DNA from: Cloeon dipterum
Taxonomy: Eukaryota; Arthropoda; Insecta; Ephemeroptera; Baetidae
Assembly: GCF_949628265.1 (NCBI RefSeq)
Contig: NC_088789.1
Location: forward strand, 34,589,883 to 34,653,882
Direction: 5' to 3'
Length of the DNA stretch: 64,000 nt
In this document: in pieces, positions 6,962 to 61,774 of the stretch
Numbering within the stretch: the first letter of the stretch is position 1
Layout of the letters: every line of letters begins with the position of its first letter
Notes under the pieces: model-generated
Seen by the model: only the letters and a program-made list of their open reading frames with translations
Told to the model about the DNA's origin: nothing
Database searches by the model: none
Position numbers and translations under genes: made by a program

Positions 6962-7016
6962 GAGAATTATTTTGCCAATATTGATAAAAATTTGATTTTT
7001 TTCTAGACGAAAATTT

Positions 7017-35763: not shown

Positions 35764-35876
35764 TTGTGAGCAACAGACTGAATTTAGATACAAAAAAAAC
35801 GACTCGCTCCGATTGTGAAATGAAAGATTGTCCAACAATGTCTGTATATTAATTGTTGTTAGATTGTATCAAGTAA

Positions 35877-35882
35877 AATAAA
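35877..35882 (+). terminator. Poly(A) signal of MIPEP
   Basis: Canonical AATAAA about 114 bp downstream of the MIPEP stop codon. Confidence 0.7.
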
Positions 35883-36564
35883 TTCTTATCAAGAATGGAA
35901 TTTATTTTGTTTTTCTCTTAATTATTATTCTTGGAAATTGTTTCCACTGCGATTATGTGCGAATTCAGAGATAAATTACCTTTCGGTGGTGTTATTTGAT
36001 GCTAAAAAACCCTGAAGAATCCTATGGATTCATTTGAAGCCAAAATTTGCCTGATTATCGTTGTAAAATTTTCTAGAAAAGTTTCTGTAAAATGATGAGG
36101 ACTGTCTTCTTACTTGAAATCTGGTTTTATTTCACAACAAAGAGTTTCCCTGAAAGGTTTCGTATGCTGTCGGACAGATCCTGACGAAGAGGAATTGATA
36201 ACTGCCAAGAAGAAGTGGTCAAGCGCTGTAAATTTGAAAGAAAATTTGGATTTTAATGTAGCAAGGTCGGATCCCTTTTTGATTATTACAAATTTTTATC
36301 TCCTTGAGAGTACCTGAATTCCTTGGTGGCTCTGTGACTTATTTTTACCGAGAATTCCCGCTCCTGATTCTTATTTCCCGACTCCTCTCCCGCCGAGCCC
36401 GTTTTCTTTTTGCTGCAAAAATTTATTCTATGCTCGCATACTTACAAATTTTTGATAGAATTCTACCTGTAATTCAATTTCACAAATAATCTTGAAAATT
36501 AATGCGATTTCTCTCTCCTTTGGTAGGTGTAAAAGTGCGTTGAAAAGTGCAGTGTGAGTGTTGC
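35883..36564. other. Intergenic, nothing recognised
   Basis: AT-rich spacer between the end of MIPEP and the left edge of the segmental duplication. Short open frames only. Confidence 0.5.
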
Positions 36565-37824: not shown

Positions 37825-40800
37825 TCAATTGATTTTCATTTGCTGTAACACATCGGAACATTGTTCGTCATTCCTAATCTTTTCATTTACTTCGGCACCA
37901 TACACGAGCAGTATTTGAACAATTTCTTTCACTGGATTATTCTTAGCCGCGAGAAATAAAGCAGTCTCTCCACGAGAATTTTCTACATTTATCTCGGCGC
38001 CTTTCTCAAGCAGCTCTAGGATGATTTCAGAAGCTGGGTTTTGTTCAGCGGCCAAATGCAGTGCTGTGTATTGATCATCATTGTCTTGTGCGTTAACTTT
38101 GGCACCATTTTCAAGTAAAATTGTAACTATTTCTGAATTTTTATTCCATCCAGCCGCTAGGTGAAGGGGTGTGAATCCTTTTTCATCTTGCGAATGAACG
38201 TCGGCGCCATTTTCGAGCAGATTTTGGATCACCTCTGCATTTGGGTTACTTTCAGCGGCAAAATGCAGTGCGGTAACTTTATTATTGTTTTGAGCGTTTA
38301 CTTTGGCACCTGTTAGTAGCAAAATTCTCACTATTTCCGTGTTTTCGTTCCATCCAGCAGCTAGGTGAAGGGCTGTATTTCCATCATTGCATTGTGAATG
38401 AACGTCAGCGCCGTTTTCGAGCAGTTTTAAGACGATTTCCGAAGCTGGGTTATATCTAGCGGCCATATGCAGTGCGCTCCATTTTGAATTGTCTTGTGCG
38501 TTTACTTTGGCACCATTTTCCAGCAAAATTCTCACTATTTCCGTGTTTCCATTCCAACCAGCAGCTAGTTGAAGGGCTGTATTTCCATCTTTACTTTTTG
38601 AATGAACGTCGGCGCCGTTTTCGAGCAGCTTTTGGACGATTTCTGAAGATTGGTTATATCTAGCGGCGAAATGCAGTGCGGTCAATTTATTATTGTTTTG
38701 TGCGTTTACTTTGGCACCTGTTTGTAACAAAATGTCCACTATTTCTGGGTTTTCATTAAATCCAGCAGCTAGGTGAAGTGCTGATGATCCATCCGTACTT
38801 TGTAAATGAACATCGGCACCAATTTCAAGCAGTTTTTGGATGATTTCTAAAGATGGGTTATATCTAGCGGCAAAATGCAGTGCGGTCCAGTTTTTTTTGT
38901 CTTGTGCGTTTACTTTTGCACCGTTTTCGAGCAAAATGTTAACGTTTTCTGGGTTATTATTACTCTGAGCAGCTAGGTGAAGGACTGTACATTCATCTTT
39001 ACTTTTCGAATGAACGTCGGCGCCGTTTTCGAGCAGTTTTTGAATCACCTCTGCATTTGGGTTATTTTGAACGGCGAGATAAAGTGCGGTCAATTTCTCA
39101 TTGTCTTGCGCGTTTACTTTGGCACCTTTTTCGATCAAAACCTTCACTATTTCTGGGTTTTTGTTCAACGCAGCAGCTCGATGAAGCGCTGTATGTCCAT
39201 CTTTACTTCTTGAATCAACGTCAGCACCGTTTTCGAGCAGCATTAAGATCACATCCGCATGTGGCTTTCTTTCAGCGGCTAAATGCAGTGCGGTCAAACT
39301 ATTATTGTTTTGTGCGTCTACTTTGGCGCCTCTCTCTAGCAAAATTCTCACTATCTCCGTGTTTTCGTTCCATCCAGCAGCTAGGTGAAGGGCTGTATTT
39401 CCATCATTGCATTGTGAATGAACGTCAGCGCCGTTTTCGAGCAGTTTTAAGACGATTTCTGAAGCTGGGTTATATCTAGCGGCCATATGCAGTGCGTTCC
39501 ATTTTGAATTGTCTTGTGCGTTTACTTTGGCATTATTTTCAAGCAAAATTCTCACTTTTTCCGCGTTGTCATTCCAACCAGCAGCTAGTTGAAGGGCTGT
39601 ATTTCCATCTATACTTTTTGAATGAACGTCGACGCCGTTTTCGAGCAAAATTTGGACGATTTCTGAGACTGGGTTAAATCTAGCGGCGAAATGCAGTGCA
39701 GTCAATTTAATATTGTTTTGTGCGTTCGCTAATGCACCATTGTCAAGCAAAATTTGCACTACTTTAGGGTTTTTATTCCACCAGGCTGCTAGGTGAAGTG
39801 CTGATGATCCGTCTTGATCTTGTGAATTAACGTCGGCACCGTTTTCGATCAGCTTTTGGATCATTTCTGGTGCTGGGTTAAATCTAGCCGCGAAATGAAG
39901 TGCGTTCATTTTATCATTGTCCTGTGCGTTTATGTTTGCACCATTTTCAAGCAAAATTTTCGCTACTTCCGGGTTTCTATTCAACCCAGCAGCTCGATGA
40001 ATGGCTGTATATCCATCTTTACTTTGTGAATGAACGTCGGCACCGTTTTGGAGCAGTTTTTTGATCACCTCCGCATTCGGGTTATTTTCCGCGGCGAAAT
40101 GTAGTGCGGTCTCTTTGTCATTGTTTTGTGCGTTTACTTTCGCACCATTTTCAATCAAAATTTGTACCATTTCTGGGTTTTTATTCCAGAAAGCAGCTCG
40201 ATGAAGGGCTGTGTGCCCACATGTAATTTTTGAATGAACGTCAGCGCCTTTTTCGAGCAGTTTTTGGATCACTTCTGCATTTGGGTTATTTTCAGCGGCC
40301 AAAAACAGTGCGGTCACTTTATCATTGTTTTGTAAGTGTACTTCTGCACCATTTTCAAGCAAAATTTCCACTATTTCAGAGTTACTATTACTCTGAGCAG
40401 CTAGGTGAAGGGCTGAAGATCCCTTGTTGTTTTGCGAATGAACGTCGGCGCCATTTTTGAGCAGTGTTAAGACGAATTCTGAAGCTGGATTGTATCTAGC
40501 GGCGAAATGCAGTGCGGTCCAATTTTTATTGTCTTTTGCGTTTACTTCTGCGCCATAGTCAAGCAAAATTTTCACTATTTCTGGGTTACTATTGCCCCGA
40601 GCAGCTAGGTGAAGAGCTGTTAATTCTGTTTGATCTTGAAAATGAACGTCGGCGCCTTTTTCAAGTAGTTTTTGGATCACCTCTGCATTTGGGTTGTTCT
40701 CAGCGGCCAAATGCAGCGCGGTCCAACCATCGTTGTTTCGTGCGTTTACTCTGGCACCATTTTCAAGCAAAATTTGGACTAATTCTGGGTCTGGGTTGCA

Positions 40801-43800
40801 CTCAGCAGCCAAATGAAGGGCTGTATTTCCTTCTTCATTTTGTGAATCAACTTCGGCGCCGTTTTCGAGCAGTTTTTGGACCACCTCTGCAGTTCGGTTG
40901 TTTTCAACGGCGAAGTGCAGTGCGGTTCGATTTTTATTGTCTCGTGCGTTTACTTTTCCACCTTTTTCTAGCAAAATGTTAACTATTTCTGGGTTACTAT
41001 TACTCTGAGCAGCAAGGTGAAGGGCTGTATATTCATCTTTACTTTGCGAATTCACGTCAGCGCCGTTTTCGAGCAGTTTTAAGACGATTTCTGAAGCTGG
41101 GTTATATCTAGCGGCGAAATGCAGTGCGGTTCGATGTTCATTGTCTGTTGCGTTTACTTCTGCACCTTTTTGAAGCAAGATTTCGACTACTTCTAAGTTT
41201 TCATTGAAACCAGCAGCTAGTTGAAGGACTGTATTTCCATCATTACTTTCTAAATCAACATCGGCGCCATTTTCGAGCAGTTTGAAGATGACTTCTGGAG
41301 TTTGGTTGTGTCTAGCGGCGTTATGCAGTGCGGTCCATTTTTTATTGTCTTGATTGTTTACTTTAGCACCTTTTGCAAGCAAAATATTTACGATTTCTGG
41401 GTTTGGATTCCACCCAGCAGCTATGTGGAGGGCTGTATATCCTTCATTACTTTGTGAATGAACGTCGGCGCCATTTTCTAGCAGTTTTAAGACGATTTCG
41501 GGAGTTTGGCTATATCTAGCGGCCAAATGCAGTGCGGTCCATTCATCATTGTCTCGTGCGTGTACGTTGGCACCTATGTCCAGCAATCTTTGCACGATTT
41601 CTGGATTTTCATTCCACCCAGCCGCTAGGTGAAGGGGTGTGAATCCTTTTTCATCTTGCGAATGAACGTCAGCGCCGTTTTCGAGCAGCTTTTGGATCAC
41701 TTCTGAAGCTGGGTTATTTTTTGCGGCAAAATGCACAGCGGTCCATCTATCATTGTCTTCTGCGTTTACTATGGCACCCTTTTCAAGCAACATTTGGACT
41801 ATTTCTGAGTTTTTATTATACCGAGCAGCTAGATGAAGAGCCGTCAATCCTGCTTGATCTTGTAAATGAACGTCGGCGCCTTTCACAAGTAGTTTTTGGA
41901 CCACTTCTGGAGATGAGTTGAATCTAGCGGCGAAATGCAGTGGGGTCCATTTATCATTGTCTTGTGCGTTTACTTTGGCGCCTTTTAGAAGGAAAATTTC
42001 CAGTATTTCTGGGTTTTCATTCCACCGAGCAGTTAGATGTAAGGCTGTTAATCCTCCTTGAGTTTGTGTATGAACGTCGGCGCCGTTTTCGAGCAGAATT
42101 GCGACAATTTCTGGAGCTTGGTTATATCTAGCGGCCAAATGCAGTGCGGTCAAATCTTCATTGTCTTTTGCGTCAACTTTAGCTCCCATGCCAAGCAAAA
42201 TTTTCACTATTTCTGCGTTTTTATTGCAACGAGCAGCCACGTGAAGGGCTGTCCATCCATTTTGATCTTGAGAATCAACGTCGGCACCATTTTCGAGCAG
42301 CTTTTTGACCACTTTCACATCTGGTTTAGACCTACCAACCAAATGTTGGAGAGCGGTTCGGTCTTGTTCGTTTCCTTCGGTACCTTTTCCAAGCAAATTA
42401 TTAAGAATCTCTTGATTTTCATTTAACCCAGCTGCTAGGTGATGGGCTGTGGTTCCTTCTTTATCTTCTGAATTATCTTCAACAGCGTATTCTAGTTGCT
42501 TATGGACCATTTCTGTAAGCTCGTGAAACACTGCGGGGTAATGCAATGGTTTTCGTTTGTGCAAAATATTCACAATTTCTGGGTTTTCATTTGACCCAGC
42601 GGCTTGGTGAATGTCTTCGATTCTTTCTTCATGTTGTGAATCAACGTCAACGCTGTATTCTAGCAGTGTTTGGACCATTTCTGCAACTTCGTTGTTTCCA
42701 AAGGCGTAATGCACAGTGATCCGCTTTTTATCGTCTTCTAAGATTACCTTGTTATTTTTCTCATTCATCATATTCAAAATTTCTGGGTTTACGTTTGACC
42801 CAGCTGCTAGGTGAAGGGCTGTGATTCCTTCTTCGTCTTGTGAGTTAACGTCAATGCCATATTCCAGTAGCTTTTGGACCACTTCTGATGCTTCGTCATT
42901 TTCAAAGGCGTAATGCAAAGCAGTTCGCCTTTTATTGTCTTGTAAGTTTACTTTGGCCCCTTTGTCAAGCAACATATTCACAATTTCCGGGTTTTCATTT
43001 GACCCAGCTGCTAGGTGAAGGGCTGTGATTCCCTCCTCATCTTGTGAATTAATGTCAACGCCGTATTCTATTAGCGTATGGACCACTCCTGTAACTTCAT
43101 GATTTTTAGCGGCGTGATGCAAAGCAGTTTGTTTTCTATTGTCTTGTAAGTTAACTTTGGCACCTTTTTGAAGCAATAATTTCACCAATTCTGGGCTTTT
43201 ACTATACTGAACAGCTAGGTGAAGAGCTGTTTCTCCATTTAGATCTTTTAAATTGACATTGGAGCCCCTATCAAGAAGTTCTTGCACTAAAACTATATCA
43301 CTAGAGCCAACGGCATAGTGCAAAATTGACTTTCCAAATGAATCAAGTTGATTTACTTCAATATCGAACTTCAATACAAGCTGTAGTGCCACTTCCCATT
43401 TTTTTCTCGCACAAGCCAGCAGAAGCAGAGTGTTTTTTAAGCTGGTTTCAGCGTTTTTGTCCACTTGTGTGTTTCGCAAGATCCAAATAGCCACTTCCTC
43501 GCTGCACTTCTCGTCAGCAATCGCCAGGTGAAGACAGCTTTCTCCAGTGTTGATTCTTTCGGTTGCTAACCTGCTGTTCTTTTCGTGTACCATCTTGACC
43601 ATTTCAAGGTGCCGCAGTGCCAAATGCAAAGCGTTTTTACCGTCTTCATCTTTCAATGAGAGATCGGGGTTGAGCATCTTGAACATTTGTCTCAAATCCT
43701 CACGACATATTTGTCTTACTAATTTCATAGCGTTTGTCATTTTAGCACAATCCACAAGTAGTGCTTCTTCGCAAGATACGTCCTTCCCATTCTCCGTGGA

Positions 43801-46800
43801 AAAGAAAAAGTCAATGAACTTCCTGCACTGCACTAATTCATCGTTGAACAAGGGTACTTCTTCAGCTACTGGATTTTTTGAGTCATATAGAAACTTTTGT
43901 GCGGTAAGGAATTCTGCAAACGTTTGGTGAGTGAAATCAACTCTGTCATTGCAATATATTACAACTCCGAAAGTGTTGATCTTTTTCAAATGTAACTTTG
44001 TTATTAAACTATCTTGGTCAATCTGCACTCCTGCTACAAAACGAGAGGCCACCAATTGAATGAACTTCAATGATCTTTCAATCGCCTCCTCTCCAACATC
44101 TTTGCCTCCATTTTCTTTCACCAAACTTAATTTTACTCTTTTCCGCACAATTTTGTCAAAGATGTCATACAAGTTTCCTTTGCCTTCGTACTCGGCCAAC
44201 AAGGTGAGATAAAGTGGGTTTCCCAGAATGTTTTGATCTTTGAAGTTCTTCCTCAATTCATCGATGTCTTGCTGGCTCTTCCGTGCCACGGTCTGCAGAA
44301 TCTCGATTTGCTTTGCTTCATCAAGGGGTTCAATCTCAACTATCGTTGTGTTCTTGATCCGGTCTTGAATGTAGTGCACTTCATGAGGCCTGGTTCCGAT
44401 GAAGAGTGGGACTCTTGCATTATGTAATGCAATCAAAATTTTGATGATTTTTTCTCTGAAGTCTGGACACACTTCGTCAAAACCGTCGAGGAAAACAATT
44501 GCTTCTTTCTTCTCAATCCACTGGATAATGTCGTCCTTAGAATTGCAAGTTGTCTTGGCAAGGAATTCGGTTTCATCCACTTTCATTGGTGGCAGGTTAA
44601 AAATGTATCGATAGTGTTTTTTCAGTGGAATCAGCAGGATTTTAAACCCGTCATCAAATTTCGGGAGTTGGTGCGCCATTTCTAAGAGTACGGTCGATTT
44701 GCCTGCCCCAGCAACTGAATTAAGCAACCAAACAATGCTCGCGTCAGCTGAATCTCCCACTGCAGAGAGAGCTTCTAAGCCTTTGACAGAATTAAACTTT
44801 TTCGAAGGTTTAATGTCGCTCGGATTTTCTGAACGACTCATCGAATTTTTGTTTCCCTCAAACAATCGCTTCGCCTCTTTCATTAATGTTTCAAAGTCGA
44901 TCTTTTTCTCATAAGGAGGTTCCATAGAATTTATAATTCTTAACATTTGGCCACGGAGGCTTCTTGTCTTTTTAAGTTTGAAATCTGGGTTGACAAAAAT
45001 TCTTGGCCAAGTAGGAAATTTGAGGAGATATTGCAAAGTAGAATTGAGAAGAACCACGTCTTCTTTTTTGGACTCACGAGTTAGCAGAGGCTCCAGAAGT
45101 TCTTGCAGGCTCTTCTCGTCGATTTTTCCAAGAAGTTCAATCAAATCCTCTGATGCATCTAAGTGAGATTTTTTTTTTATTAAAATGCCTCAAAGACCTG
45201 AAATATGTTAAAATTACCTTCATATTTTAGAATCAATACTAGCCAGCCACTGTGGTTTGTAGCAGAGACTTGTAGTTCTTTCATGTCCGGAGATATCTAA
45301 ATATAATTAAAGATGTGTTACCAAATAATCTTTTGCATTAGTTCTAGTAGAGCTCTAGAGCTTACACTGTCCGTTTGAGGTGCTTCTGCGTTAACAACGA
45401 TCAGAATTTTCGGCTTTCCAATCATTTTGTCGTTATTAGGGCCGACCAAACTGTGTAGAATGTCCGTGATTGGAGTCTCTTTATCCTTTTGCACGCGCAC
45501 GCAGACTTCCTTGTGTTCGTTTTCACACACAGGGCCAAATATGCAGGTCAAAATGCAGCCCACGTCTGGTTCCAACTCGGACACTGTAAAATCAGCATTA
45601 AAATCCATTTTTGACTCTTTCTTTGTTCAATTTTGATACTCACCCATCTTAAAATAGAAATCCATGGATGTTCCACTCAGTATCCAGTCTCTAATTTCGA
45701 AGTCTAGTTTGCGAAGAACTCTCTCCACTTCTTGCACTTGTTTGCTTCGGACGACAGATAGAATGAAACCACTACGACCCCTAATGTCTCTTCCTTCATC
45801 CGATTTCCAGGAAAAATTTGCAGAAAATGGTTGTTTTCTGACTTTGCTCTTGTCCCTTTGCGCATCAGTGTTTGAAAAAGATTTTGCTGCTATTTTCGAC
45901 CTGAAAATTTTGTTAAGATTCTTTTATACCGCTTGCTAGATTCTTTAGATTTACATGATTAGTCAAGTAGGGTTGTTTGTATCGATATTATCCGTTTCAT
46001 TAGAGAATACTCACTTTGAGATAGTGAATTTTCTGTCCTGTGTAAACATTTTGAGCTCTGGTGTCTGCCCCAGAAGAGTGTTTTCCACAAAGTTTGTGGA
46101 ATTGCGTGACTTTTGGTGCATTCGACTCTGAACAGTGGTGAAGAATTTCAACAAGGGCTCATCATCGGCACTGTCCAGACAAAAGCAGATGTTTCTGACA
46201 AACCATGAACCATTTTTATTAGTGTTTGCCATTGTCGCTGTAAATATTTTTAAAAATATATTAGTGTCAAGTAAAGAGCAATCGTTGCGGTTTATAATAT
46301 TACTTTCTACTGTCGAATAGAACACGACAAAGTTTTGCATTCCTGGGCGAGTGGTGATTCGGCACGAATTCTTGTTATCATACTTCTCGTATGATTTATT
46401 TATGTCAAACTTTGAATCCTCCAACGTACCCCGACATGGCTGAAAACATGGTGTGAATATTTATATTATTTATCTCGCAATTTACTTGGTATTTAGTAAT
46501 CAATTGTTTGTTGTTAAGCTCACCCCAAAATTCACGATTTTCAGACAGTTGCCGAATCTCTTTAGGCTCTGTAAAGAGTCTAGTACTTCATCTGTAGTGA
46601 AACGTTCATAATCATTTGTTTCCCTATCTATGTGGTCAGTCATTATTGTTCCATTTTCAGTCCCATGAGAGAGAATGAAAAGCACGAAAACAGAGGGCAC
46701 ATCATCTAAATCAAAAGTGATCATAAGATTATATGAAATTTAATTTGAACGAGGTACCTTTTAAGTTGAAAAGCTGCAAAAGCCCTTCTTGATCGCCAAG

Positions 46801-47868
46801 AAGTTGGAGTAAAGTCTCTTTGTTCGGTGACATGTTACGGAAATTGCAATTCCGGTTTTCCCCGAAGGAAGTCTTGAGGTTTTCTACGTCACAGGTGTCT
46901 CCATTTCGGATAAATTTAGGATCGTTTTTGAACTCGTAGTGAATGACTAGGACACAAACACTTAAAAGAGCAATATAAGTTTCTAATTTGATTTAAATCA
47001 GGAAATTTACTTGTCTGCGTTTTGTCTGGTGACACGTCCATCTAATTCACTTTCAAAAAATCCCAGATTTGCTAACCTTTTAATTTGATTGTGTGTTTCA
47101 CCTGGAATAAAAAATGAGCAGCTATTTATTTCTGCACGACTCTACTACAAGTAATGCCGGAGTATTAAAGCACGCGCATAATAGAAAAATACCTTTAACA
47201 TCATTCTCCGGGAATTCCTTTGACTCGATCGTTACTTCCGTTTCAACCTCTGTGTTGTCCGTTGGATTTGCTCCTGCAGAAACAATTTGTGACTGCCCCG
47301 TTTGCTGATGGGATTGGGTGTTTTCCTAAAACATTGTCGAAGAAAGTTTGTTTTTATCATCGTCTAAGGTTTTAGGTTCTTGACCTTGACGTCAATAGCA
47401 AATCAGAACTCACAATTGGTTTCATAGAGAAAAATCTAACTGTACCTGCTGCTGCTCGTCATTTAGTTGACTTCCTGAAGCGACAGAATTATCCAAACGT
47501 CGGTATTCTTTTGGAACTTTGATGTTGCACGTTTGAACATACTGTTGAAGTCCTTGGACGGTGGAAGCAGTGGCAAGAACGAGACATTCTTTCTGATCTG
47601 CCTCGCTCAGCAAGTGCTCGAAATCTTGGTCAGTCTTGGGTTTTTGGTCCAGGAAAGTTCCATCGTGAAGGTCTACCTCCAAAGACTCGTGCCATGCTGA
47701 TTGCAACACACTTCCCCAGAATTCTTGTCCAAGAGTGTTCCAGGCAAGTCCTGGATTCGAATGTCTTGCTTTTGGTCTTGGTCTCAAGAACTTTGACGGT
47801 ACAATGAAGTAATTTATTTTAGTGTTCGTGTCCAAACAGTAAGCGAAATAATTTGTCTCTATTTCCAT
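37825..47868 (-). CDS. Caspase / pseudo-caspase / NACHT / ankyrin giant protein, paralogue 1
   Basis: Exons, phase-consistent throughout: 47446-47868, 47193-47325, 47011-47101, 46758-46960, 46524-46705, 46304-46439, 46015-46237, 45644-45900, 45366-45583, 45218-45296, 37825-45158, giving ~3,092 aa (3,114 if the 66-bp intron 46238-46303 is kept). Domains: unrecognised N-terminal region 1-215; caspase ~217-463 with IRNGDTCDVENL, catalytic His297 (ILSHG), Cys346 (PCRG) and a small-subunit NGSWF core; degenerate caspase-like domain ~464-648 (GKPKI kept, no SHG or CRG); NACHT with Walker A GAGKST near 799-804 and Walker B VFLDGFDEV near 870-878; then about 55 ankyrin repeats to near the end. No transmembrane or signal segment, so cytosolic. 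The architecture implies a nucleotide-dependent sensor whose protease is in the same chain (inference). The 7.3-kb last exon has no introns. Confidence 0.9.
38000..43300 (-). repeat. 204-bp higher-order ankyrin repeat array, gene 1
   Basis: Ankyrin repeats of 34 aa alternate between two types. One has a core like GWNENPEIV, an LLE-GAKVNAQDN turn and a following WTALH. The other has ARYNPASEIV and LLENGADVHSQ. The repeat unit at DNA level is therefore about 204 bp, visible on the plus strand as a recurring AGCTAGGTGAAGGGCTGT every ~204 bp. The 5'-most (N-terminal) repeats, about 42,300-43,600, are more degenerate. Confidence 0.85.
46238..46303 (-). other. Stop-free 66-bp in-frame intron in the caspase small subunit (gene 1)
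   Basis: It begins GTAATA and ends TTTACAG on the minus strand. It has length divisible by three and no stop, so a naive frame runs through it. Removing it gives YSTVE-TTMANTNKNGSWF, which matches the spacing of caspase small subunits. Keeping it inserts 22 residues there. The same intron lies at 60508-60573 in gene 2. Confidence 0.65.
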
Positions 47869-50800
47869 CTTACTGGGATGACTGCAAAGTCATTTTCACA
47901 AGCTGTTTAGTGTTTCCATTTGATTTTAAAACTGTAATCAAAGAAATTTCCAATACGAGAATAAATATAAATTCAAAATAATTTATTAATTACAAAAACA
48001 ATCGATTAAACGATTTATTAAATGGCAACAAAACATGTCTAGCAAGACTAGAGAGTTAATCTTAAAAATATTTTCTTTGTTTGATGACCAGAATAACAAT
48101 ATCGATTTAGATCGATAAAAGTTAATCGATTTTTTCAAAATGGACGTGTCAGCGGGATTGTCTCAAGCACTGCAAAATAACATTTGTATTTTAATGCAGA
48201 ACGTTCTTCAATGCCGGGCTTATACACTACATTTTAATTTTCATAACTTCATTCAGGAAGCGGCTTTTTTTCATTTGTTTGCGCAGCGCGAACGGTCTCT
48301 CTCCTGTTTATTTCGTAGAGGTAAAAGAAACATATATCCATTTGTGCGTGCCGCGAAGTGGCGAAAAAATAGCACACTTTATTCCGGCCAATGGCCTTTC
48401 AAAGCTGCCGTTCAGTTCACAAAATAATTAGGCATGGTAAAAGGGTGCGAAAATAAAGCAACAAACCGATATCTATATAATTGGCCACCGCGAGCGACGG
48501 ACCTCGTGCCAGTCGTGACGTCACTCGTTGGGGGAAAAGGCCCTGAATTTTAAATTAAATAATATTAACGGCAGGAGAGTGGCCATCCGTGCCATGCAAC
48601 GCGAGAAACGATTGTCTGCACCCCGTGGGGGATCATAAACGGGTAGTAAACAAAAATAATACGGTCCGAGAAGAATTTTCGCGTTAATTGGACGGCGTAA
48701 AGCGATCTCGAGCTCAGCCGCGCCAACGAAGTCCCCCGAGCCCACTCCAGGGGCACTGATGATGCTAGTTATTTTGTAAAAAAAAGCCAAAAATCATCAA
48801 CCTCTTGAGAGTCTCATCCTTATCTATGATGCTTCTGTCAGCTTTTCACTCAAATATTGACGCGTTTTCTTATCTACGTGCTCTATATACGTGGGTTAAT
48901 GCAACCTTGTGTTTTTTATCTCTGGTTTTCACGTCGCGGGAACAAACAAAGTCCTTCTTGTTTAAGAAATTATGATTTTATTTTCACAAAAATAACTTTC
49001 AATAAATTTCGGGCCCGGTGAGCAGCTGCCAGCCACGCCAGCCGCCGGTAAAAAATGTTCAAAAAGTAAAAAGTGCAAGAAAAATTGTCTTCAATTTAGT
49101 TCCTCTGGCACTACCAAATTTTACGTTTAAAATATTGTCAGCCGTGCCAGCCACCGGGCAAAAAAAAAAAAATATCCGCCAGCCACCGCATTAAATTTCG
49201 CGGCTGAGACTTCTATAGTTTTGACATATTTTTATGGCACTGCAATGACTATTCAAGATAAAATATGAAATCTTGTGGCGTGCGTTACCATCCGCGTGGG
49301 GAGCGTCTCTAATTACCTCCAATAATTAAATAATATGCGTATAAGTTTACAATGTTAGTTATAACAACACATTGCGCATTGCGATCGCAGATTCAGTGTA
49401 CTTACATTACAGCTGTCCTTGTCCTCTCGAGGTGGTTAACAAGCGGAATCAGTCCACGATTTTCCCACAAAATGAGTCTACCTTTTGCTGCGCGTCTCTT
49501 TTAAACGCGCGAGATAACATCTAAAATTTGGACTTTCGACACCAGCCGATAATATTTTCTAGGCCAGCAATAATTTTACTGCTTTTCTTATCTCGACTAT
49601 GAAGATTTCCGACGCTGATAAATCTTGTGTAGAATTTCACGGGTAATAATCCCCGAAAAAAAATCAATTCAATTTTCAATATACGAAAAGAGGTCGAAGA
49701 AAATCACCTCGACTTTCGACCTGTGATGTTTTTCAGGAGCTGCAAAAAATCCCGTCCAATTGACCTCTAAACTCGTAAACAAACGTGATCTCCTAAATCC
49801 AAAGGCAGCGGCCAAATCGAAGCGAAGGTCAAAGCTCTTCGTGGCCCGATAGAAATAATAATAATTCACGCCTCGCGCCTCTCCCTCCACTGCTTAAAAT
49901 GTGCGTGTGTGCGTTTGTGAGAGAGAAAGAGAGAGTTTGCGGCAGCTGCGTGCTGGCATAAAATTTGGGATCGACTGCTATTTTTATTCTGAGCTTCAAA
50001 TAATTTGGGGACAGTCAACTGTTCACGAATCATACAATTTTATGCTATTTATTGAAGCAAACTAAAAACTTATAAATATATTACTAAGGACTTTGTGCAA
50101 GAAACAGCACAACTATATCAATAATAATTTACGCTGCTCATCTACATATCAATTTATGGTTAGAAATTAGCTTCTTTTCAACTCTCACCGCTGCAGCAGG
50201 TCGAAGGTGGACCCAATTCTTCTTTTCCTCCTCAAATCACGCCGCGATCCTGATCCTATCAGATGATACTTTAGCTCTCGCACGGCTGGCACACTCAAAA
50301 GACGCACCGCGCGGCGTGTTAATGCTTTCGAGATCTAAAAGCGGCAGAAAGAGTCCATCACTCGTGTGCTGCCAGGAGAGCAGTCGCGCTCCATCTGTCA
50401 CCCGCCGCGTGATTCAAAAAACAATTAGGCAGACCCGGGTTTTTAAAAAGAGAAATAATAAACAGGATTGAAGCAAAGGGCCTTTTTCATAATTTAAAAT
50501 CTTTTTTTAAGGTATTCGAATTGAAGGTTAATAAATTTGATAAAAGATATGCCTCATTTTAAAAATGGAGGTAAATTTTCAGTTTTTTCATTGTGATTTG
50601 AATGAAATTGCAATTTTGGGGACAAATTAAGACTCGACAAACAGTGGCCAGTATTTTAAATAACTAAAATGCCGGAACACAATAAAAATAAAACATATAT
50701 ATTATATTTCTCCCTTCAATGTGGTTCGCATGGCTGCTCATGCTTGAGACTCGAGGGCTCACCGCGGTGCGCAGGGAAATTTATTCTCTCCTGAAAGCCA

Positions 50801-51874
50801 AGAAAAAGCGGGTCTGCTAGTCTGGTGCATCGACGCAACGATTCCGTCCGGCGTCGGGTAAAAGTGCTTTTAAATCGGGTTGCCCTGCTCGTTCTTCATC
50901 CCTCTTCAATCACCGGGTCAATCAAAGAGTCTACAAATTGATGATTTCAGTTGATTATCGAACTGACTTCTCCTTCCTTATACAATTTTAGTTACCCTCG
51001 ATAATTCTCTATGCGATTTCTCTTCGTCTCTCCCCTCGACGCTGCTTTTAATTCCGGCCGCTTCAATGTTCCTATTTTTACCTCCTTCTCTCCGAACACA
51101 CAAGTCGCGATAACGCAAAAGCGGCCTTGACACTGAACTCCTTTCTAATCGGCATCCCAAAAAACAAACAAGATTAACCAGCTAAATTTTACACATCGAA
51201 TTAAATCAATAAAAAATAAAGTGGCCTCCTCTCTGATGGTCGCTTTATAGAGTATTCATGATAATAATTATGATCTCACAATTAGCAGAGCCCAATTTAG
51301 TTCGGAAATATTTGTATAATTTCTCAATTTAATAATTCATGTATCTAATAAAAAAAATGTCGCATGGCTCGATTCTCGCCTTATTTTAAATGGTCATTTT
51401 TTAAATGGAGCGATCAACAATTAACACGCTACTGCCACCATTTCAGTAGATAACAAACTTAAAACGTGGTTTTCGCACCTAAAGTGTTCGAATTGCATGA
51501 CGTCACAGTTCTTGCCAAGCAGCAGATAAGATAACTCTCGCAGTTAGTTGCTACGTGAGGGCAGCACCTCTCGCACCCGCTGCTTCCTTCTTGGGGCGGC
51601 CAGCACAGGGTTGGCGCTGATGCAGCGGCTGTTGCACTTCGTTGGCGCCGCCGGACAAAGCCATGCTCGGCAAACTGCAGAAGGTGTAAAGGTTTATTGG
51701 GCCCTTCGACCCTGGAGGGTGCACCTTTTTGAAATGATTCAGGGCTGTGAGTTAGTTAAGCTGCAATTATGCGTTTGTACTTGAAAAATTTTGTGGATTT
51801 TTAAAAGGAAATTGTTATATTTAATTCCATGATTTTAAATTTTACATAATTACAAATTTAGTGAGATTTTTGGG
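47869..51874. other. Upstream region of gene 1 and spacer to duplication unit 2
   Basis: 47,869-50,500 is duplicated upstream of gene 2 and so should hold the shared promoter and 5' UTR. Short stretches of strong conservation include the region around 48,720-48,960 and the GAGAGAGAAAGAGAGAG run near 49,918. 50,500-51,874 is single-copy AT-rich spacer. No further gene could be supported; the 95-codon frame at 48,140 is disrupted in the copy. Confidence 0.5.
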
Positions 51875-53295
51875 TCATTCGACTGTCCAGTTCGCGGCGC
51901 CGGGGACGTTGTTTCGGAGCAGAACTTCCAGAAATAATGCCGGAAAGGTGCTGAGTGCAGGATCGATTTTGAACTAGCATTGCGTATTTTTAAAATTTCA
52001 ACCAGGTCGCAATCGACCTTTCCATTTTTCTAAGCTAGTTTTTGCATACATACATTTGTCTTTCAGCTCAATATGCAATCTCTTTCGGTCTCTTTTAGAT
52101 GGATTTTTTTTAAATTTTGCATGCAAATATGAGCGAAATAGTGGCAAAAAAAAACACTGAATTGGCAACGATAGAGCGCTTGAACTTTTTTAGCATTCAG
52201 AAACTACTGAATCAAGTGCATTCCTTAATCAACTTTTGACTTTTTTCTAGCAGGTCCTCCAGATTAAATGATCCTCTTGTCCATTTTGAGGCAAATGCTG
52301 AAAAAATAAATATGTATTCTAAAAAGGAAATCCAACTTACTCCAGGCATATCCGGCAGAAGCTTCCATTCGAGATTAAGATAAACGATTAAGTGATTAGC
52401 AAAGTCATTTTATTATTATCCACGCGAGTTTACAGACATACAAATTAATTTCCGCGATGATTTCTCTTCCCCGTGCCTTGCATGAAGGTTGAACGCAGGC
52501 GTAGCAGAACCCTGAAAAATCCTACGGAGAGAACTGGATTAAAATTGCAACTTCTAAGATTTATTATCATAAAAAAATAGGATTTGCAGGATCTTCTCCG
52601 TGACGAGGAAAAGCTTTGCGATTTTCTAGTTCTAAGGGCGAAAATCTGAAAATTATGAGTTTCCATATCTATTTAATTAAATGTCCCGATGTTCCCGATC
52701 TAACCACAGAGACATATCTCCCATTCTTAATCAGTCAAGATGAAATGAACAAAACCACTCAAACGTGAAAGGATCAAATATGAATATTCACAGCATATTC
52801 ACACTCATATACATTCTAAAAGTTGTTACGCGAAAAATTAAAAATCAAATCAAATTCTTTAAGATTCTTATTTATTTTTAAACATACCAGTAACAATACA
52901 TTCATATTCCATATACTATAGTCCAAAATATTTACAAACATACAATTTATTTGATACATTAAAACTAAAAATAAGATAATAGCAACTTATCCAATAATCC
53001 AAAGTAAGTTATAAATCTACCAGTAAGTAAACGGGTTGGATTGATTATTCATTTCTTGATACTATTCCAAAGGTACAAAAGTGGATAAATCAATTTTTAC
53101 AATTGAACAAATAGCATGTTTATTACATAGTAAAGTAGGTTTGGGGCCAATATGAATCTTACCCAAAATAATAGCTTTTTAACCAATATTCACTCTCTTT
53201 TCACTATCAAAAAATTGAATATATACCATAAGCTTTTCCGATCATTATTAACCATTAGGTCAGGGTAATTTAGCCTTTAGTCTTTTAAAAATTTC
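51875..53295. other. 3' flank / UTR of caspase-NACHT-ankyrin gene 2
   Basis: Matches 36,565-37,824. No gene seen. The first ~450 bp carries about 235 bp not present in unit 1. Confidence 0.5.
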
Positions 53296-56200
53296 TCAAT
53301 TGATTTTCATTTGCTGTAACACATCGGAACATTCTTCGTCATTCCTAATCTTTTCATTTACTTCGGCACCATACACGAGCAGTATTTGAACAATTTCTCT
53401 CTCTGGATTATTCTTAGCCGCGAGAAATAAAGCAGTCTCTCCATCAGAATTTTCAACATTTATCTCGGCGCCTTTGTTAAGCAGCTTTAGGACCATTTCT
53501 GGAGAAGAATTAAATCTAGCGGCGAAATGCAGTGCAGTACATTTGTTTTTGTTTTGTGCGTTTACGTTGGAACCTTTTACAAGCAAAATTTGGACTATTT
53601 CTGCATTCTTATTCAATGCAGCAGCTCGATGAAGGGCTGTATTTCCATCTTTATCTTTTGAATGAACGTCAGCGCCATTTTCGAGCAGTTTTTTGATCAC
53701 CCCTGCATTTGAATTTTTTTCAGCTGCTAAATGCAGAGCGGTACAATCATCAATGTTTTTCGTGTCTATTTCGGCACCTTTTTCAAGCAATATTTCAACT
53801 ATTTCTGGGTTTGCATTAAACCCAGCAGCTAAGTGAAGGGCTGCGTATCCATCTTTACTTTGTGAGTTAACGTCAGCGCCGTTTTCGAGCAGATTTTGGA
53901 TCACCTCTGTATTTTGGTTTTTTTCGGCGGCCAAATGCAGCGCGGTCCATTTATTATTTTGATGTGCATTTACTATGGCACCATTTTCAAGCAACAATTT
54001 CACAACTTCTGCGTTTTTATTGAATCCAGCAGCTAGGTGAAGGGCTGTACTTCCTCCTTCATTTTGCGTATCAACTTCGGCGCCATTTTCGAGCAGTATT
54101 TGGATTACCTCTGCAGTTGGGTTAAATCTAGCGGCCAAATGCAGTGCTGTAATTCTACCATTGTTTTGTGCGTTTACGTTGGCACCTTTTTCAAGAATAA
54201 TTTTCACTATTTCAGGGTTTGTGGTAACCCGAGCAGCAAGGTGAAGGGGTGTAAATCCATTTTTTTCTTGTAAATGAACATCGGCGCCGTTTTCGAGCAG
54301 CTTTTGGACCATTTCTGAAGATTGGTTATATCTAGCGGCGAAATGCAGGGCGGTCCATTTATCACTGTCTTTTTCGTTTACTTTGGCACCTTTTTGAATT
54401 AAAAGTTTTACTATTTCTGGGTTTTCATTCCAACCAGCAGCTAGTTGAAGAGCTGTATATCCATCTTTACTTTTTGAACGTACATCAGCGCCATTTTCGA
54501 GCAGTTTTTGTACGATTTCTGAAACTGGGTTAAATCTAGCAGCCAGAAGCAGTGCGGTCCAGTTAGCATTTTGTTGTAGGTTTACGTTGGCACCTTTTTC
54601 AAGCAGAATTTTTACTATTTCGGGGTTTGTGTTTAGCTGAGCAGCAAAGTGAAGGGCTGATGATCCATCTTGCTCTTGTGAATTAACGTCAGCACCGTTT
54701 TCGAGCAGCTTTTGGACGATTTCTGAAGCTTGGTTATATCTAGCGGCGAAATGAAGTGGAGTCCATTTATCACTGTTTTGTACATTTACTTTGGCACCTT
54801 GTTCGAGCAACATTTTCACTATTTCAGGGTTATTGTTATACCCAGCAGCTTGGTGAAGGGCTGTCGACCCTTCTTCGTCTTGTAAATTGACGTCAGCGCC
54901 TTTCTCCAGCAGCTTTTGGACCACTTCTATAACTGGATTATTCGCTACGGCGAAATGCAGGGCGGTCCTACCATCATTGTTTTGTGCGTTCACTTTTGCA
55001 TCTTTTTCTAGCAAAACATTGACTATTTCTGGATTTTTATTCAACCCAGCAGCTCGATGAAGGGCTGTATTTCCATCGTTACTCTCTGAATGGACATCGG
55101 CACCGTTTTCAAGAAGTTTTTCGATCACCTCAGCATTTGGGTTATTTTCAGCGGCCAATTGCAGTGCGGTAACTTTATCATTGTTTTGTGCGTTTACATT
55201 TGCACCATTTTCAAGCAAAATCTTGACTATTTTAGGATTTTCATTCAAATAAGCAGCTCGATGAAGGGCTGTACATCCATCTTGACTTTTTGAATGAACA
55301 TCGGTGCCGTTTTCCAGCAGTTTCTGGATCACCGCTGCGTTTGGGTTATTTTCAGCGGCCAAATGGAGTGGAGTCCAATTATCTTTGAGAAGTGCACTAA
55401 CATTTGCACCTTTGTCAAGTAAAATTTTCACTATTTCTGGGTTTTCGTTCCAAGTAGCTGCTCGATGAAGGGCTGTATATCCATCATCACTCTGTGAATT
55501 AACGTCTGCGCCGTTTTCGAGAAGTTTAAGGACGACTTGTGCAGTTGGGTTATATCTAACGGCCAAATGCAATGCGGTCACTTTATCATTGTTTTCTGCA
55601 TTTACCATTGCACCCTTTTCAAGTAAAATGTTCATTATTTCTGGATTTTTATTCAACCCAGCAGCTCGATGGAGGGCTGTAAATCCATCTATACTTTGTG
55701 AATGAACGTTGGCGCCGTTTTCAAGTAGTATTTGGATCACCTCGGCCTTTGGGTTTTTTTCAGCGGCCAAATGTAGTGCGGTCACTTTACAATTGTTTTG
55801 CGCGTTAACTTTTGCACCCTTTTCAAGCAATATTTTCACTATTTCTGGGTTTTCATTCATCCCAGCAGCTAGGTGAAGGGCTGTAGTTCCTTCTTCATTT
55901 TGTGAATCAACTTCTGCGCCGTTTTCGAGCAGTATTTTGATTACCTCAGGATTTTGGTTTTTTTCAGCGGCCAAATGGAGTGCGGTCATTTTATCATTGC
56001 TTTGTGCATCCATTTTAGCACCATTTTGAAGCAGAATTTTCACTATGTCCGGGTTTTTACTACACGCAGCGGCTCGATGAAGGGCTGTATATCCATCTTT
56101 ATCTTTTGAATGAACGTCTGCGCCCATGTCAAGCAGTTTTTGAATCATTTCCGTATTTGGGTTTTTTTCAGCGGCAAAATGCAGTGCTGACCATTGATCA

Positions 56201-59200
56201 TTGTTTTGCGCGTTTACTTTGGCACCATTTTCAATCAAAATTTGTACAATTTCCGGGTTTTTATTAAATCCTGCAGCTTGGTGAAGGGCTGTGTATCCAT
56301 GTTTACTTAATAAATGAATGTCAGCGCCGTTTTCGAGCAGTTTTTTGATGATATCAGTAGCTGGGTTGTCTTTAGCGGCGGAATGAAGTGCGGTCCATTG
56401 ATCATCATTGTCTTGTGCGTTTACGTTGGCACCCATTTCAATCAGAATTTCCACTACTTCTGGGTTTTCATTCATCCCAGCAGCTCGATGAAGGGCTGTA
56501 TATCCATCGTGACTTTGTGAAAGAACGTCGGCGCCGTTTTCGAGCAGTTCTTCGAGCACTTCTGTATTTGGGTTTTTTTGAGCGGCCAAATGAAGTGCGG
56601 TCACATTTTCGATGTTTTGTGTGTCTATTTTTGCACCCGTTTCAAGCAATATTTTCACAATTTCAGGGTTTTCATTCCAAAAAGCAGCCTGATGAAGGGG
56701 CGTAAATCCATCTTTAATTTGTGAACTAACGTCGGCACCGTTTTCAAGCAAATATTTGATCACCTCTGCATTTTGGTTTTTTTCGGTGGCCAATTGTAGT
56801 GCGGTCACTTTCTCATTGTTTTGCGCGTTTACTTTGGCACCTTTATCAATTAAAATTTTTACTGTTTCGGCGTTTGTATTAAAGCAAGCAGCGAGGTGAA
56901 GGGCTGTACTTCCTCTTTGATTTTTTGAATCAACTTCGGCACCGTTTTCAAGCAGTTTTTCGATCACCTCTGCAGTTGGGTTATTTTCTGCGGCCAAATG
57001 TAGTGCGGTCACTTTATCATCGTTTTGTACGTCAACATTGGCACCCTTTTCAAGTAAAATTTCAACTATATCTGCGTTTTTATTAAACCCAGCAGCTAGG
57101 TGAAGGGCTGTGCTTCCTCCTTGATTTTTTGAATCAACTTGGGCGCCATTTTCGAGTAGCTTTTGGAGGATTTCTGCATCTGGGTTATATCTAGCAGCAA
57201 AGTGTAGTGCGGTCCATTTTTCTTTAATTTGTGCGTCTACTTTGGCACCTCTTTTAAGCAACATTTTCACTACTTCAGGGTTTGTATTCCACCCAGCAGC
57301 TAGGTAAAGGGCTGTAGTTCCAGCCTGATTTTTTGTATCAACTTCGGCGCCTTTGTTGAGTAGCTTTTGGGTGATTTTTGCATCTGGATTATATCTAGCA
57401 GCAAAGTGTAGTGCGGTCCAATTTTCATTGTTTTGGTCGTTTACTTCGGCACCTTTTTCAAGTAAAAGTTCCACTATTTCTGGGATTTTATTATGCCCAG
57501 TAGCTATGTGAAGGGCTGTAAATCCATCATGGTCTTTTAAGCTGACGTTTGAGCCTCTATTAAGAAGTTCTTGAACCAAGTCTGATTTGTTGGAACGGGC
57601 GGCATGGTGCAAAATCGATTTTCCATCAGGACTATATTTGTTTAGTGAAACATTAGCGAAAACAAGCTTTTGCACCACTTCCCATTTTTGGCTTGCACCT
57701 GCCAGAAGAAGCGGCGTGTCATTAATTTTGGACTCAGCGTTTTTGTCCGCTTCAGTGTTTTCCATGATCCAAAGAGCCACTTCCTCGCTGCATTTGTCGT
57801 CAGCAATCGCCAGGTGGAGACAGTTTTCTCCATCGTTTGTTGTTTCAGTCGCCAACTTGCTGTTCTTTTCATGCACCATTTTGACCATGTCAAGATGCCG
57901 CAATGCGAAATGCAAAGCGTTTTTACCTCCTTCGTCTTTTAACGAGAGATCTGGTTTGAGCAACTTGAACATTTCTCTCAAATCCTCTCGACAAATTTGG
58001 CTGACTAAGTTCAAAGGTTCAGTTGATTTAGCCCAATCAACAAAAGCCCCTGCGTTGGACGCGTCCTTATCATTCTTCGTAGAAAAGAAAAGGTTAACGA
58101 ACTTCCTGCACTGCATCAATTCATCAAGGAATAAGGGCACTTCTTCATCTGCAGGATTTTTCAAATCTTTTATAAATTTTTGTGCGGTAAGAAATTCTGC
58201 AAACATTTGGTGGGTGAAATGTACCTTTTCATTGAAATATATCACAACTCCAAAAGCGTTGATCTTTTTCAAATCTAACTTTTTTACACTGCCTTGGTCG
58301 ATTTTCATTCCTCTCACATATCGAGAGGCCACCAATTGAATGAGCTTCAATGATTTGTCAATCGTCTCCTCTCCAACATCTTTGCCTCCATTTTCTCTCA
58401 CCAAACTTAATTTTACTCTTTTCCGCACAATTGTGTCAAAGATATCATACAAGTTTCCTTTGCCTTTGGAATCGGCCAACAAGGTGAGATAGAGTGGGTT
58501 TCCCATAATTCCTTTGTTTTTGTATTTTTCCCTCAATTGTTTGATTTCTTGCCGATCCTTTCGGCAAACGGTTTCCAGAAACTCGATTTGCTTTGCTTTA
58601 TTCAGAGGTTCAATATCTACTTTCGTAGAGATTTTTATCCTCTCTTGAATGTGGTGCACTTCGTGAGGCCTGGTCCCAATAAAGTGTGGGACTCGAGCAT
58701 TGTTTAAAGCAAACATAATTTGAATCATTTTTTCTCTGAAATCTGGACACACTTCGTCAAATCCGTCGAGGAAAACAATGAGTTCTCTCTTCTCTATCCA
58801 GTCGGTAATATCGTCCTGGGAATTGCAAGTTGCGTCTGCGAGGAATCTGTTTGCATCCACTTTGAATGGCATATCACGTATGATCTGGTATTTATCTTTC
58901 AGAGGAATTCGCAGTATTTTAAACCCTCCATCATATTTGCTGAGTTGGTGCGCCAGTTCTTTGAGAACGGTCGATTTTCCTGCTCCAGCAACAGAACTAA
59001 ACAACCAAATGATGCTCGGTTCACCTGAATTATTTGCTGAAGACATTGCTTCATAGTGTTTGATGGAATTCGACTTTGTCAAAGGTCCAAAATCGTGTGA
59101 AGATGGTGAATTTTCTAGGGAATTCGCTACCGATATTTTGTTTTTCTCAAACGATTGTATGGCATATTTCAATAATGTTTCAAAATCAATATTTTCCTCG

Positions 59201-61774
59201 ATATAAGATTCCCTTGAATTTTTAAAACGAATCATTCGTGCACGGGAGATTTTGGCCAAATTAATTTTGAAATCGGGTTTGACAAATATTCTTGGCCAAA
59301 TAGGAAATTGGATGAGATACTGCAAAGTGGAATTAAGAAGAACCACGTCTTCTTTTTTGGACTCACGAGTTAGCAGAGGCTCCAGAAGTTCTTGCAGGCT
59401 TTTCTCACCGATGTTTCCAAGTAGTTCAATCAACTTCTCTGATGCATCTAAGTGAGAGAATTTATTTTTGTAAATACCTTAGAGACATATAAAGGTACTT
59501 AAAAATTACCTTCATATTTTAGAATCAATACTAGCCACCCACTGTGGTTTGTAGCAGAGACTTGTAAATCTTTCGTGGGCACATGGATCTAAATAAAAAA
59601 TAATTGTCCAACTATCATCTATCGTGTAAGTTGGAGTAAAACTTACGTCGTCCGTTTGTGGTGCTTCCACGTCCACGTCAACAACGAACATGATTTTTGG
59701 CTTTCCTATCAATTTATTGTTTTTAGGGCCAACCAAAGTGTATAGAATGTCCGTGATCGGACGAGTCTCTTGACCCACACGCACGCAAACCTCTTTCTGT
59801 TCGTTTTCACACACAGGGCCAAATATGCAGGTCATGATGCAGCCCACGTCTGGTTCCAACTCGGAAACTGAAAAACCTGAATTAAACAAATTTTCTCCTT
59901 TTATTTGATACTCACCATTTTCAGTATACAACTTCACTGATTGTTCATTAAGTTTCCACTCTCTAATTTCGAAGTCCAGGTTTTGAAGAACCCTCGTCAT
60001 TTCTTGCACATGTTTACTTCGGACAACGGATAATATGAATCCTCTACGGCCCCTGATATCTTGCTCTTCATCCGATTTCCAAGGGAAATTTGCAGAAAAT
60101 GGTTTTATATTTACTTCGCTTGTGTCCCTCGTCGCATCAGTGTTTGAAGAAGGTATTGCTGTCGTTTTCGTACTGTAAAATAAGTTTGTTTGAAACTGTT
60201 ACATTATGTTTTCTACATTATTTTGATTTGTGGTGAAGTCAAGTTCGATTGTTTTTATCCTTTCTACACATTTATAAAACTCACTTTGAGATTATGAATT
60301 TTCTGTCCTGTGTAAACATTTTGAGCTCTGGTGTCTGCCCCAGAAGAGTGTTTTCCACAAAGTTCGTGGAATTGCGTGACTTTTGATGCATTCGACTCTG
60401 AACAACGGTGAAGAATTTCAACAAGGGCTCATCATCGGCACTGTCCAGACAAAAGCAGATGTTTCTGACAAACCATGAACCATTTTTATTAGTGTTTGCC
60501 ATTGTCGCTGTAAATTTTTTTAAAAATATATTAGTGTCAAGTAAAGAGCAATCGTTGCGGTTTATAAAATTACTTTCTACTGTCGAATAGAACACAACAA
60601 AGTTTTGCATTCCTGGGCGAGTGGTGATTCGGCACGAATTCTTGTTATCATACTTCTCGTATGATTTATTTATGTCGAATTTTGAATCCTCCAACGTACC
60701 CCGACATGGCTGAAAACATGGTGTGAATATTTAGATTATTTATCTCGCAATTTTCTTGGTATTTTGTTAACATTTGTTTGTTTTAAGCTCACCCCAAAAT
60801 TCACGACTTTCAAACAGTTGCCGAATCTCTGTAGCTTCTGCAATGAGTCAAGTACCTCATCTGTAGTGAAACGTTCATAATCATTTGTTTCCCTATATTT
60901 GTGGTCAGTCATTATTGTTCCATTTTCAGTCCCATGAGAGAGAATGAAAAGCACGAAAACTGACGGCACGTCATCTAAATCAAAAGTGATCATAAGTTTA
61001 CATGAAATTTAATTTGAGCGAGGTACCTTGAGTGTTGAAAAGCTGCAAAAGCTTGTCTTGATCGCCAAGAAGTTGGAGTAAAGTCTCTTTGTTTGGTGAC
61101 AAGTTACGGAAATTGCAATTCCGGTTTTCCCCGAAGGAAGTCTTGAGGTTTTCTACGTCACAGGTGTCTCCATTTCGGATAAATTTAGGATCGTTTTTGA
61201 ACTCGTAGTGGATGACCAGGACACAAACACTTGAAAGAGCGATATTATTTTTTAATTAGATCATAGCTCTGGATAATTACTTGTCTGCGTTTTGTCTGGT
61301 GACACGTCCATCTAATTCACATTCAAAAAATCCTAGACTTGCTACCCTCTTAGTTTGATTGTGTGTTTGTTGTTGATTTCCTGAAGCGTTAGACACATCC
61401 AAACGTTTGTATTTCTTTGGAATTTTGATGTTGCACGTTTTGACGTACTGTTGCAGCTCTTGGACGGAGGAAGCAGTGGCAAGAACGAGACATTCTTTGT
61501 ACTCTGCCTCGCTCAGCAAGTGATCGAAATCTTGGTCAGTCTTGGGTTTTTGGTCCAGAAAGGTTCCATCGTGAAGGTCTACCTCCAAAGACTCGCGCCA
61601 TGCTGATTGGAACACACCTCCCCAGAATTCTTGTCCAAGAGTGTTCCAGGCAAGTCCTGGATTCAAATGTCTTGCTTTTGGTCTTGGTTTCAAAAACGTT
61701 GACGGTACAATGAAGTAATTTGTTTTGGTCTTCGTGTCCAAACAGTAAGCGAAATAATTTGTCTCTATTTCCAT
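53296..61774 (-). CDS. Caspase / pseudo-caspase / NACHT / ankyrin giant protein, paralogue 2
   Basis: Exons, phase-consistent: 61281-61774, 61027-61229, 60793-60974, 60574-60709, 60285-60507, 59916-60172, 59647-59867, 59510-59588, 53296-59447, giving ~2,648 aa. Same order of domains as paralogue 1: N-terminal region; caspase with His246 (ILSHG) and Cys295 (PCRG); degenerate caspase-like domain (GKPKIMFVV, then Val-Asp-rich in place of the CRG loop); NACHT with Walker A GAGKST and Walker B VFLDGFDEV; about 45 ankyrin repeats. It differs from paralogue 1 by in-frame loss of the exon corresponding to 47193-47325 together with both flanking introns, fusing two exons, and by about ten fewer ankyrin repeats. 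The first caspase small-subunit exon is almost identical to paralogue 1, while the NACHT N-terminal linker has diverged. All frames are open, so it is likely functional. Confidence 0.9.
53450..57560 (-). repeat. 204-bp higher-order ankyrin repeat array, gene 2
   Basis: Same alternating two-ankyrin (68-aa) unit as gene 1. Unit consensus drifts within the array: runs with AAEKNPNAEV in the second ankyrin dominate 55,100-57,000, and runs with AARYNP dominate 54,100-54,900. This implies local unit-by-unit homogenisation after the gene duplicated. Confidence 0.85.

Follow-up and report, generated by a model that had tools for sequence, protein, structure and literature searches.

Animal caspases normally reach NLRs through linker or adaptor domains, and in inflammasomes of the NLRP3/caspase-1 type the caspase is a separate protein. 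Could an insect receptor carry its sensor, its switch and its protease on one chain? We asked this of a 64,000-base stretch of the mayfly Cloeon dipterum (NCBI RefSeq assembly GCF_949628265.1, contig NC_088789.1, called C4 below; C4:34,589,883-34,653,882, forward strand), referred to throughout as the window. An original prediction, made from the letters alone, had claimed that two genes in it each join an active-site-bearing caspase and a NACHT ATPase to a giant ankyrin array, their small upstream exons running in phase into large NACHT-ankyrin frames. Both genes were modelled, and relatives were sought in the same 190.1-Mb assembly of 10 contigs. Five of these contigs measure 33-43 Mb; the assembly yielded as few as five matches to 7tm_6, an odorant receptor family restricted to insects, and the four contig ends inspected showed no TTAGG array.

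The two genes lie on the minus strand, and their stop-to-stop frames at 37,825-45,189 and 53,296-59,478 are open. Joining the upstream exons proved possible in phase, as had been claimed, and gave 11 exons encoding 3,092 amino acids for gene 1 and 9 exons encoding 2,648 amino acids for gene 2, with no internal stop in either. The introns of both genes are GT-AG, the phases of the introns that they share agree, and the start ATG of each is preceded by in-frame stops. In both proteins the order is N-terminal domain, caspase, second caspase-like unit, NACHT module and ankyrin array. The parts are given below in window positions.

37,825-47,868, minus strand: gene 1 from ATG to stop, 11 exons, 3,092 amino acids
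47,446-47,868, minus strand: gene 1 exon 1, N-terminal domain of no known family, with at least 19 copies in the genome
47,193-47,325, minus strand: gene 1 exon 2, a Gln/Glu-rich spacer absent from gene 2
47,011-47,101, minus strand: gene 1 exon 3, linker into the caspase domain
46,015-46,960, minus strand: gene 1 exons 4-7, caspase domain with large and small subunit parts (Pfam C14, 66.1 bits)
46,960-46,758, 46,705-46,524, 46,439-46,304 and 46,237-46,015, minus strand: gene 1 caspase exons 4, 5, 6 and 7
46,665-46,667, minus strand: gene 1 catalytic His codon (ILSHG)
46,434-46,436, minus strand: gene 1 catalytic Cys codon (NFG-PCRG)
45,864-45,866, minus strand: gene 1 linker Asp of SNTD-A, candidate self-cleavage site
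45,218-45,900, minus strand: gene 1 exons 8-10, second, degenerate caspase-like unit without the His and Cys
45,900-45,644, 45,583-45,366 and 45,296-45,218, minus strand: gene 1 exons 8, 9 and 10
45,159-45,217, minus strand: gene 1 intron of 59 bases linking caspase half and NACHT exon
43,555-44,802, minus strand: gene 1 NACHT module (nucleotide-binding domain, NBD; helical domain 1, HD1; winged helix; following helices)
37,870-43,340, minus strand: gene 1 ankyrin array, limits approximate
53,296-61,774, minus strand: gene 2 from ATG to stop, 9 exons, 2,648 amino acids, parts ordered as in gene 1
61,281-61,774, minus strand: gene 2 exon 1, N-terminal domain and linker
60,285-61,229, minus strand: gene 2 exons 2-5, caspase domain (Pfam C14, 69.6 bits)
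60,934-60,936 and 60,704-60,706, minus strand: gene 2 His codon and Cys codon
59,510-60,172, minus strand: gene 2 exons 6-8, second caspase-like unit, with the linker Asp at 60,136-60,138
53,296-59,447, minus strand: gene 2 exon 9, NACHT module and ankyrin array (array about 53,340-57,630)

Evidence for the fusion comes from the junction at which the NACHT exon follows the caspase half. In paralogous copies, the donor GT of exon 10 fell on the exact homologous base in 32/32. The acceptor AG of exon 11, which was sought up to 36 bases from its predicted place so that its presence is partly by construction, did so in 20/32; the others were shifted by whole codons, and L023 and L024 had none within that range. 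In each of the 31 models for which both ends were located (L023 and L024 being excluded) the intron measured 53-69 bases, which leaves scarcely any room for a terminator and a promoter between the halves, and in 25 of these 31 its length was not a multiple of 3. Chance joining of exons was considered and rejected, because the same exons, splice sites and phases recur across paralogues; retained introns were rejected as well, intron 8 offering a stop-free in-frame read-through in 1 of 29 models (window gene 2). The covalent joining of caspase, NACHT and ankyrin sensor in one predicted chain is well supported by these genomic features, and the fused architecture, taken by itself, is very likely correct.

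Next, we examined whether the first unit is a caspase. Pfam Peptidase_C14 matched it with 66.1 bits (5e-18) in gene 1 and 69.6 bits (4.1e-19) in gene 2 against a cut-off of 21.4 bits, so that the absence of such a match is ruled out. All 12 members of an alignment built from 12 of 30 caspase sets (A3) also matched at E up to 1 (best 4e-16), and the profile of these 12 sequences found caspase-3 (1.1e-8) and caspase-7 as its best relatives in the PDB. The predicted motifs RNGD, ILSHG, PCRG and NGSWF were all present, as was the expected spacing, His297 and Cys346 of gene 1 being 49 residues apart. Both window genes have the complete dyad in this unit. Among readable copies of the family, 22 of 23 have the His, L028 being the one that lost it, and 31 of 33 have the Cys; L019 has Ser instead, and in L053 a CRG was not found. 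These three copies may perhaps be naturally dead receptors. The exons surrounding the lost residues remain readable in all three.

Between the caspase and the NACHT module we found a further unit of about 180 residues (exons 8-10 of gene 1), with GKPKI..VV and, near its end, TNHSGWLVLIL. The gene 1 unit alone scored 17.4 bits with Pfam C14, below the cut-off, and single members matched in 6 of 14 cases at E up to 1 (best 6.3e-6). When a profile of 14 of the 33 second-unit sets (A2) was run against all PDB sequences at E up to 10, 38/38 of the matches listed were caspases (best 4.5e-6), and in the alignment GKPKI pairs with the strand leading to the catalytic Cys. Other residues stand at the His and Cys positions. 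The second unit is thus likely, by profile comparison, to be a degenerate caspase unit.

The linker after the caspase is variable except at one point. In 35 of 38 copies (L027 and L032, in which exon 8 was unreadable, are excluded) it holds an Asp with Gly (15 copies), Ala (11), Ser (7) or Asp (2) as the next residue, as compared with a mean of 10 and a maximum of 17 of 38 in 1,000 shuffles of the same linkers, a comparison in which the motif was defined partly after inspecting the data and the copies are related rather than independent. Small residues following Asp suit caspases, and the pattern is a strong hint that the linker Asp is a candidate self-cleavage site.

Pfam was borderline on the NACHT module, a trimmed gene 1 stretch scoring 27.2 bits (cut-off 26.7). 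A profile of 20 of the 33 NACHT stretches (A4) had NLRP3 as its best match (3.6e-4). The columns invariant among these 20 sequences, G34 K35 T37, D106-E110, T137-H140 (TRPH) and H292 (FTH), are what we take to be Walker A, Walker B, sensor-1 and the winged-helix His. An AlphaFold2 model of the module (mean predicted local distance difference test score, pLDDT, 76.3; predicted template modelling score, pTM, 0.67) showed strands and helices arranged as in an NBD, after which come further helices and a wing of two strands.

A C-terminal repeat sensor is present in the form of the ankyrin array, with 47 repeats in gene 1 and 41 in gene 2 by motif, spaced mostly by 34 amino acids and arranged in 204-base pairs of repeats. 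LRRs are the norm in vertebrate NLRs; with ankyrin repeats in their place, the predicted protein would be an NLR in the wide sense only, one with a fused C14 caspase. The most variable columns of the 34-residue unit include 2, 10, 11, 13, 33 and 34, and columns 2, 10, 11, 33 and 34 presumably correspond to target-contacting positions of designed ankyrin proteins. The ratio of nonsynonymous to synonymous substitution rates (dN/dS) between repeats was 1.07 and 1.41 in these five columns for the two repeat classes and 0.29 and 0.46 in the other columns, figures to be read with the columns having been picked partly from entropies and the repeats not being independent.

The domain of exon 1 (about 130 residues) occurs in at least 19 copies in the genome; the remaining 18 share 57-85% identity with the gene 1 copy. 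The domain's weak matches in Pfam and the PDB were no better than chance (best E 0.018 and 0.35, respectively). In neither gene did Pfam find a death-fold domain, the adaptor by which inflammasome-type NLRs recruit a caspase, within the first 760 residues, nor did it find one in the 19 N-terminal domains (A7). All 19 copies of the N-terminal domain found sit on C1 and C4. The copies read on C2 and at C3:5.68 Mb (L040, L041 and L054) seemingly have a short start stretch in place of it.

The N-terminal domain and the second unit were not part of the original prediction; neither was the size of the family. Both genes that it named were confirmed, and they proved to be two of about 80 in their family. 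From 145 genome matches we selected those covering the NACHT core, which gave at least 83 places, the window genes included; only the best-scoring candidates were considered, so that family counts are lower bounds. Most of these places fall into one block on C4 (29.3-36.0 Mb of 36.4 Mb) and another on C2 (0.8-4.7 Mb of 37.5 Mb), both of them towards a chromosome end. At 79 of the 83, a caspase exon was found no more than 5 kb upstream in the same orientation (743-3,485 bases away), and reading L048 added C4:34,845,517, making 80/83. At C4:35,769,166, C4:35,808,084 and C4:34,246,820 no upstream caspase exon was shown; the last of these is L027, whose second unit is broken by a stop. Four copies that had been caspase-negative in an earlier scan (L048-L051) all revealed both caspase units when read, and the more divergent L052-L054 have caspase, second unit and NACHT alike. 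Ankyrin repeats follow the NACHT module in the one C2 and the one C3 copy examined (L072 and L073; by eye and by motif). A group on C4 (L032, L033 and L035-L038) has shorter frames, with divergent C-termini in the two members inspected (L033 and L037).

Comparison of the window genes with each other (45,159-47,101 against 59,448-61,280) revealed an uneven divergence. The synonymous substitution rate (dS) was 0.12 in the caspase and 0.45 in the NACHT part; three introns among the caspase exons were 93-97% identical, and five others 76-88%. The two genes are accordingly mosaic in appearance, with gene conversion the likely cause: from the dS values, it looks as if the effector half is being homogenised while the sensor half diverges. 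Between the genes, dN/dS was 0.27 in the caspase, 0.37 in the second unit, 0.46 in NACHT and 0.71 in the N-terminal part, which suggests purifying selection on the first three.

How might such a protein work? Caspases need their units brought together for activity, and in c-FLIP(L)/caspase-8 a catalytically dead caspase-like domain pairs with an active one, in trans. The mayfly protein would resemble this pair in having a dead and an active unit, and differs in that the two stand in tandem in one chain, fused to NACHT. We propose that the ankyrin array would recognise a ligand or a modified host protein, upon which nucleotide exchange would let the NACHT modules oligomerise and so bring the caspase units together, activating them by proximity. 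The second unit may pair in cis with the first as an activating or a restraining partner. The active protease would then cut after the conserved linker Asp and free the N-terminal domain and the caspase from the receptor, most likely resulting in cell death or another proteolytic defence response. Each gene would on this view encode a self-contained NLR-type sensor protease with a putative immune or cell-death role, one that the original prediction had already suggested. On balance we favour this mechanism as a whole, with its cis partner, linker release and defence outcome. We advance more tentatively the wider view that these genes are an animal one-molecule inflammasome, comprising array, ATPase, protease, dead-caspase partner and self-release site, of which at least about 80 insect genes would form an adaptor-free immune repertoire diversifying at the target-facing surface of the ankyrins.

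Several results weigh against the mechanism, among them the state of the caspase pocket. The S1 pocket for a P1 Asp consists of the Arg of RxG, the Gln of QACxG and an Arg of the small subunit. Of these three residues the window genes keep the first Arg only, so that "active-site-bearing", as originally claimed, is right for the dyad but incomplete, since the other two are changed in the window's clade. The Gln two residues before the catalytic Cys is Gly in 17/17 copies in which both exons were read and the Cys is intact. The window's clade (ANTN/ANTD) lacks the small-subunit Arg, while an Arg stands at or adjoining its place in eight other copies (L034, L039, L040, L041, L049, L050, L051 and L054), and 4 of the 8 classic caspase loci fetched from the same genome keep it, these being the four readable there (L001, L003, L006 and L008; L001 shows QACRG). 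With the pocket so changed, cleavage after Asp is uncertain in this clade, which would fit poorly with self-cleavage after Asp unless another copy does the cutting. Comparison of the second unit with the first by hhalign gave no link (probability 2.5). The Pfam check of the NACHT part, successful on the trimmed stretch, did not extend to the full frames, which scored 23.3 and 25.9 bits, just below the cut-off; and the linker count and the ankyrin rates share the dependence among copies or repeats described above. The fused receptor might thus use its caspase, in the window's clade, as a non-cutting scaffold that signals by assembly, or as a protease of new specificity that cuts after residues other than Asp. 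Both pocket changes speak for this. Against it, nearly all readable copies retain the His and Cys, the Arg of R-x-G-D is kept in 5/5 full A3 domains, and the window's clade keeps its linker Asp; we consider this explanation unlikely, at something like a quarter of the weight.

The self-contained sensor protease has also to be set against two explanations that leave the pocket aside. The halves could be transcribed separately, every copy being a tandem of one caspase/pseudocaspase gene and one NACHT-ankyrin gene. An internal ATG lies within the NACHT exon, and alternative promoters or splice forms are possible; the very short separation of the halves, its mostly frame-breaking lengths and the invariant donor GT nevertheless make this arrangement very improbable. 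Alternatively, the receptor could be fused as proposed and serve a non-immune role, such as germline or self/non-self control or the restraint of mobile elements. This we regard as improbable, the point in its favour being that variable STAND families serve non-self recognition too, as in fungi, according to the available part of PMC4986451.

If the proposed sensor protease is real, the all-in-one NLR layout is used in animals too, as a large insect family, and a lineage thought to be without NLRs would possess an adaptor-free receptor repertoire. Sensing, assembly and protease firing could then be studied together in a single-protein system, and the question whether a dead caspase in cis promotes or holds back the activity of its partner could be put to a naturally occurring case. 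By architecture, the nearest analogue is found in the bacterial metacaspase-NACHT-WD40 proteins (PMC3501461, in excerpt), which likewise place a caspase-fold protease, a NACHT and a repeat sensor on one chain. They differ in being bacterial, in having a metacaspase rather than a metazoan-type caspase and in using WD40 or other repeats in place of ankyrin, and the excerpt describes no second degenerate caspase unit; the comparison is one of architecture only. PADLOC matched neither the NACHT nor the caspase.

Vertebrate NLR inflammasomes such as NLRP3 with caspase-1 share a NACHT with hallmark motifs, a repeat sensor and a caspase effector, and differ in their LRR sensor and in a separate caspase recruited via linker domains (PMC2575513, in part), no death-fold domain having been detected in the mayfly protein. 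The same partial source describes amphioxus TNFR-caspase and LRR-caspase hybrids, animal receptors with a same-chain caspase that were proposed as shortcuts; in contrast to the mayfly genes they keep the QACXG motif, and no NACHT-caspase combination is described in that part. It also states that NACHT is absent from Drosophila and C. elegans. Fungal ankyrin NLRs (PMC4986451, again in part) resemble the mayfly proteins in having an N-terminal effector domain, a NACHT-type switch and ankyrin repeats, some of them highly conserved internally; apart from being fungal, they differ in that no caspase appears among the N-terminal domains listed there. This source suggests the all-in-one layout as possibly ancestral for STAND proteins and less frequent in animals. 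No animal caspase-NACHT fusion was found among the matches listed in a search of the open-licence literature, a result that does not establish its absence from print, and a term search of the mayfly genome paper (PMC7250882) found NACHT, caspase and ankyrin 0 times each.

Elsewhere in the window, scans for tRNA genes and Rfam families found none. A cysteine-rich multi-exon gene, which by eye resembles C-type lectins, lies in several tandem copies at about 7,000-26,400 on the minus strand; 0 of the 4 frames tested matched Pfam. Between these and gene 1, exons of a Peptidase_M3 gene lie at 31,000-36,000 on the plus strand, with a match in 4 of the 5 frames tested (best 3.8e-25), and by eye the gene is mitochondrial intermediate peptidase-like.

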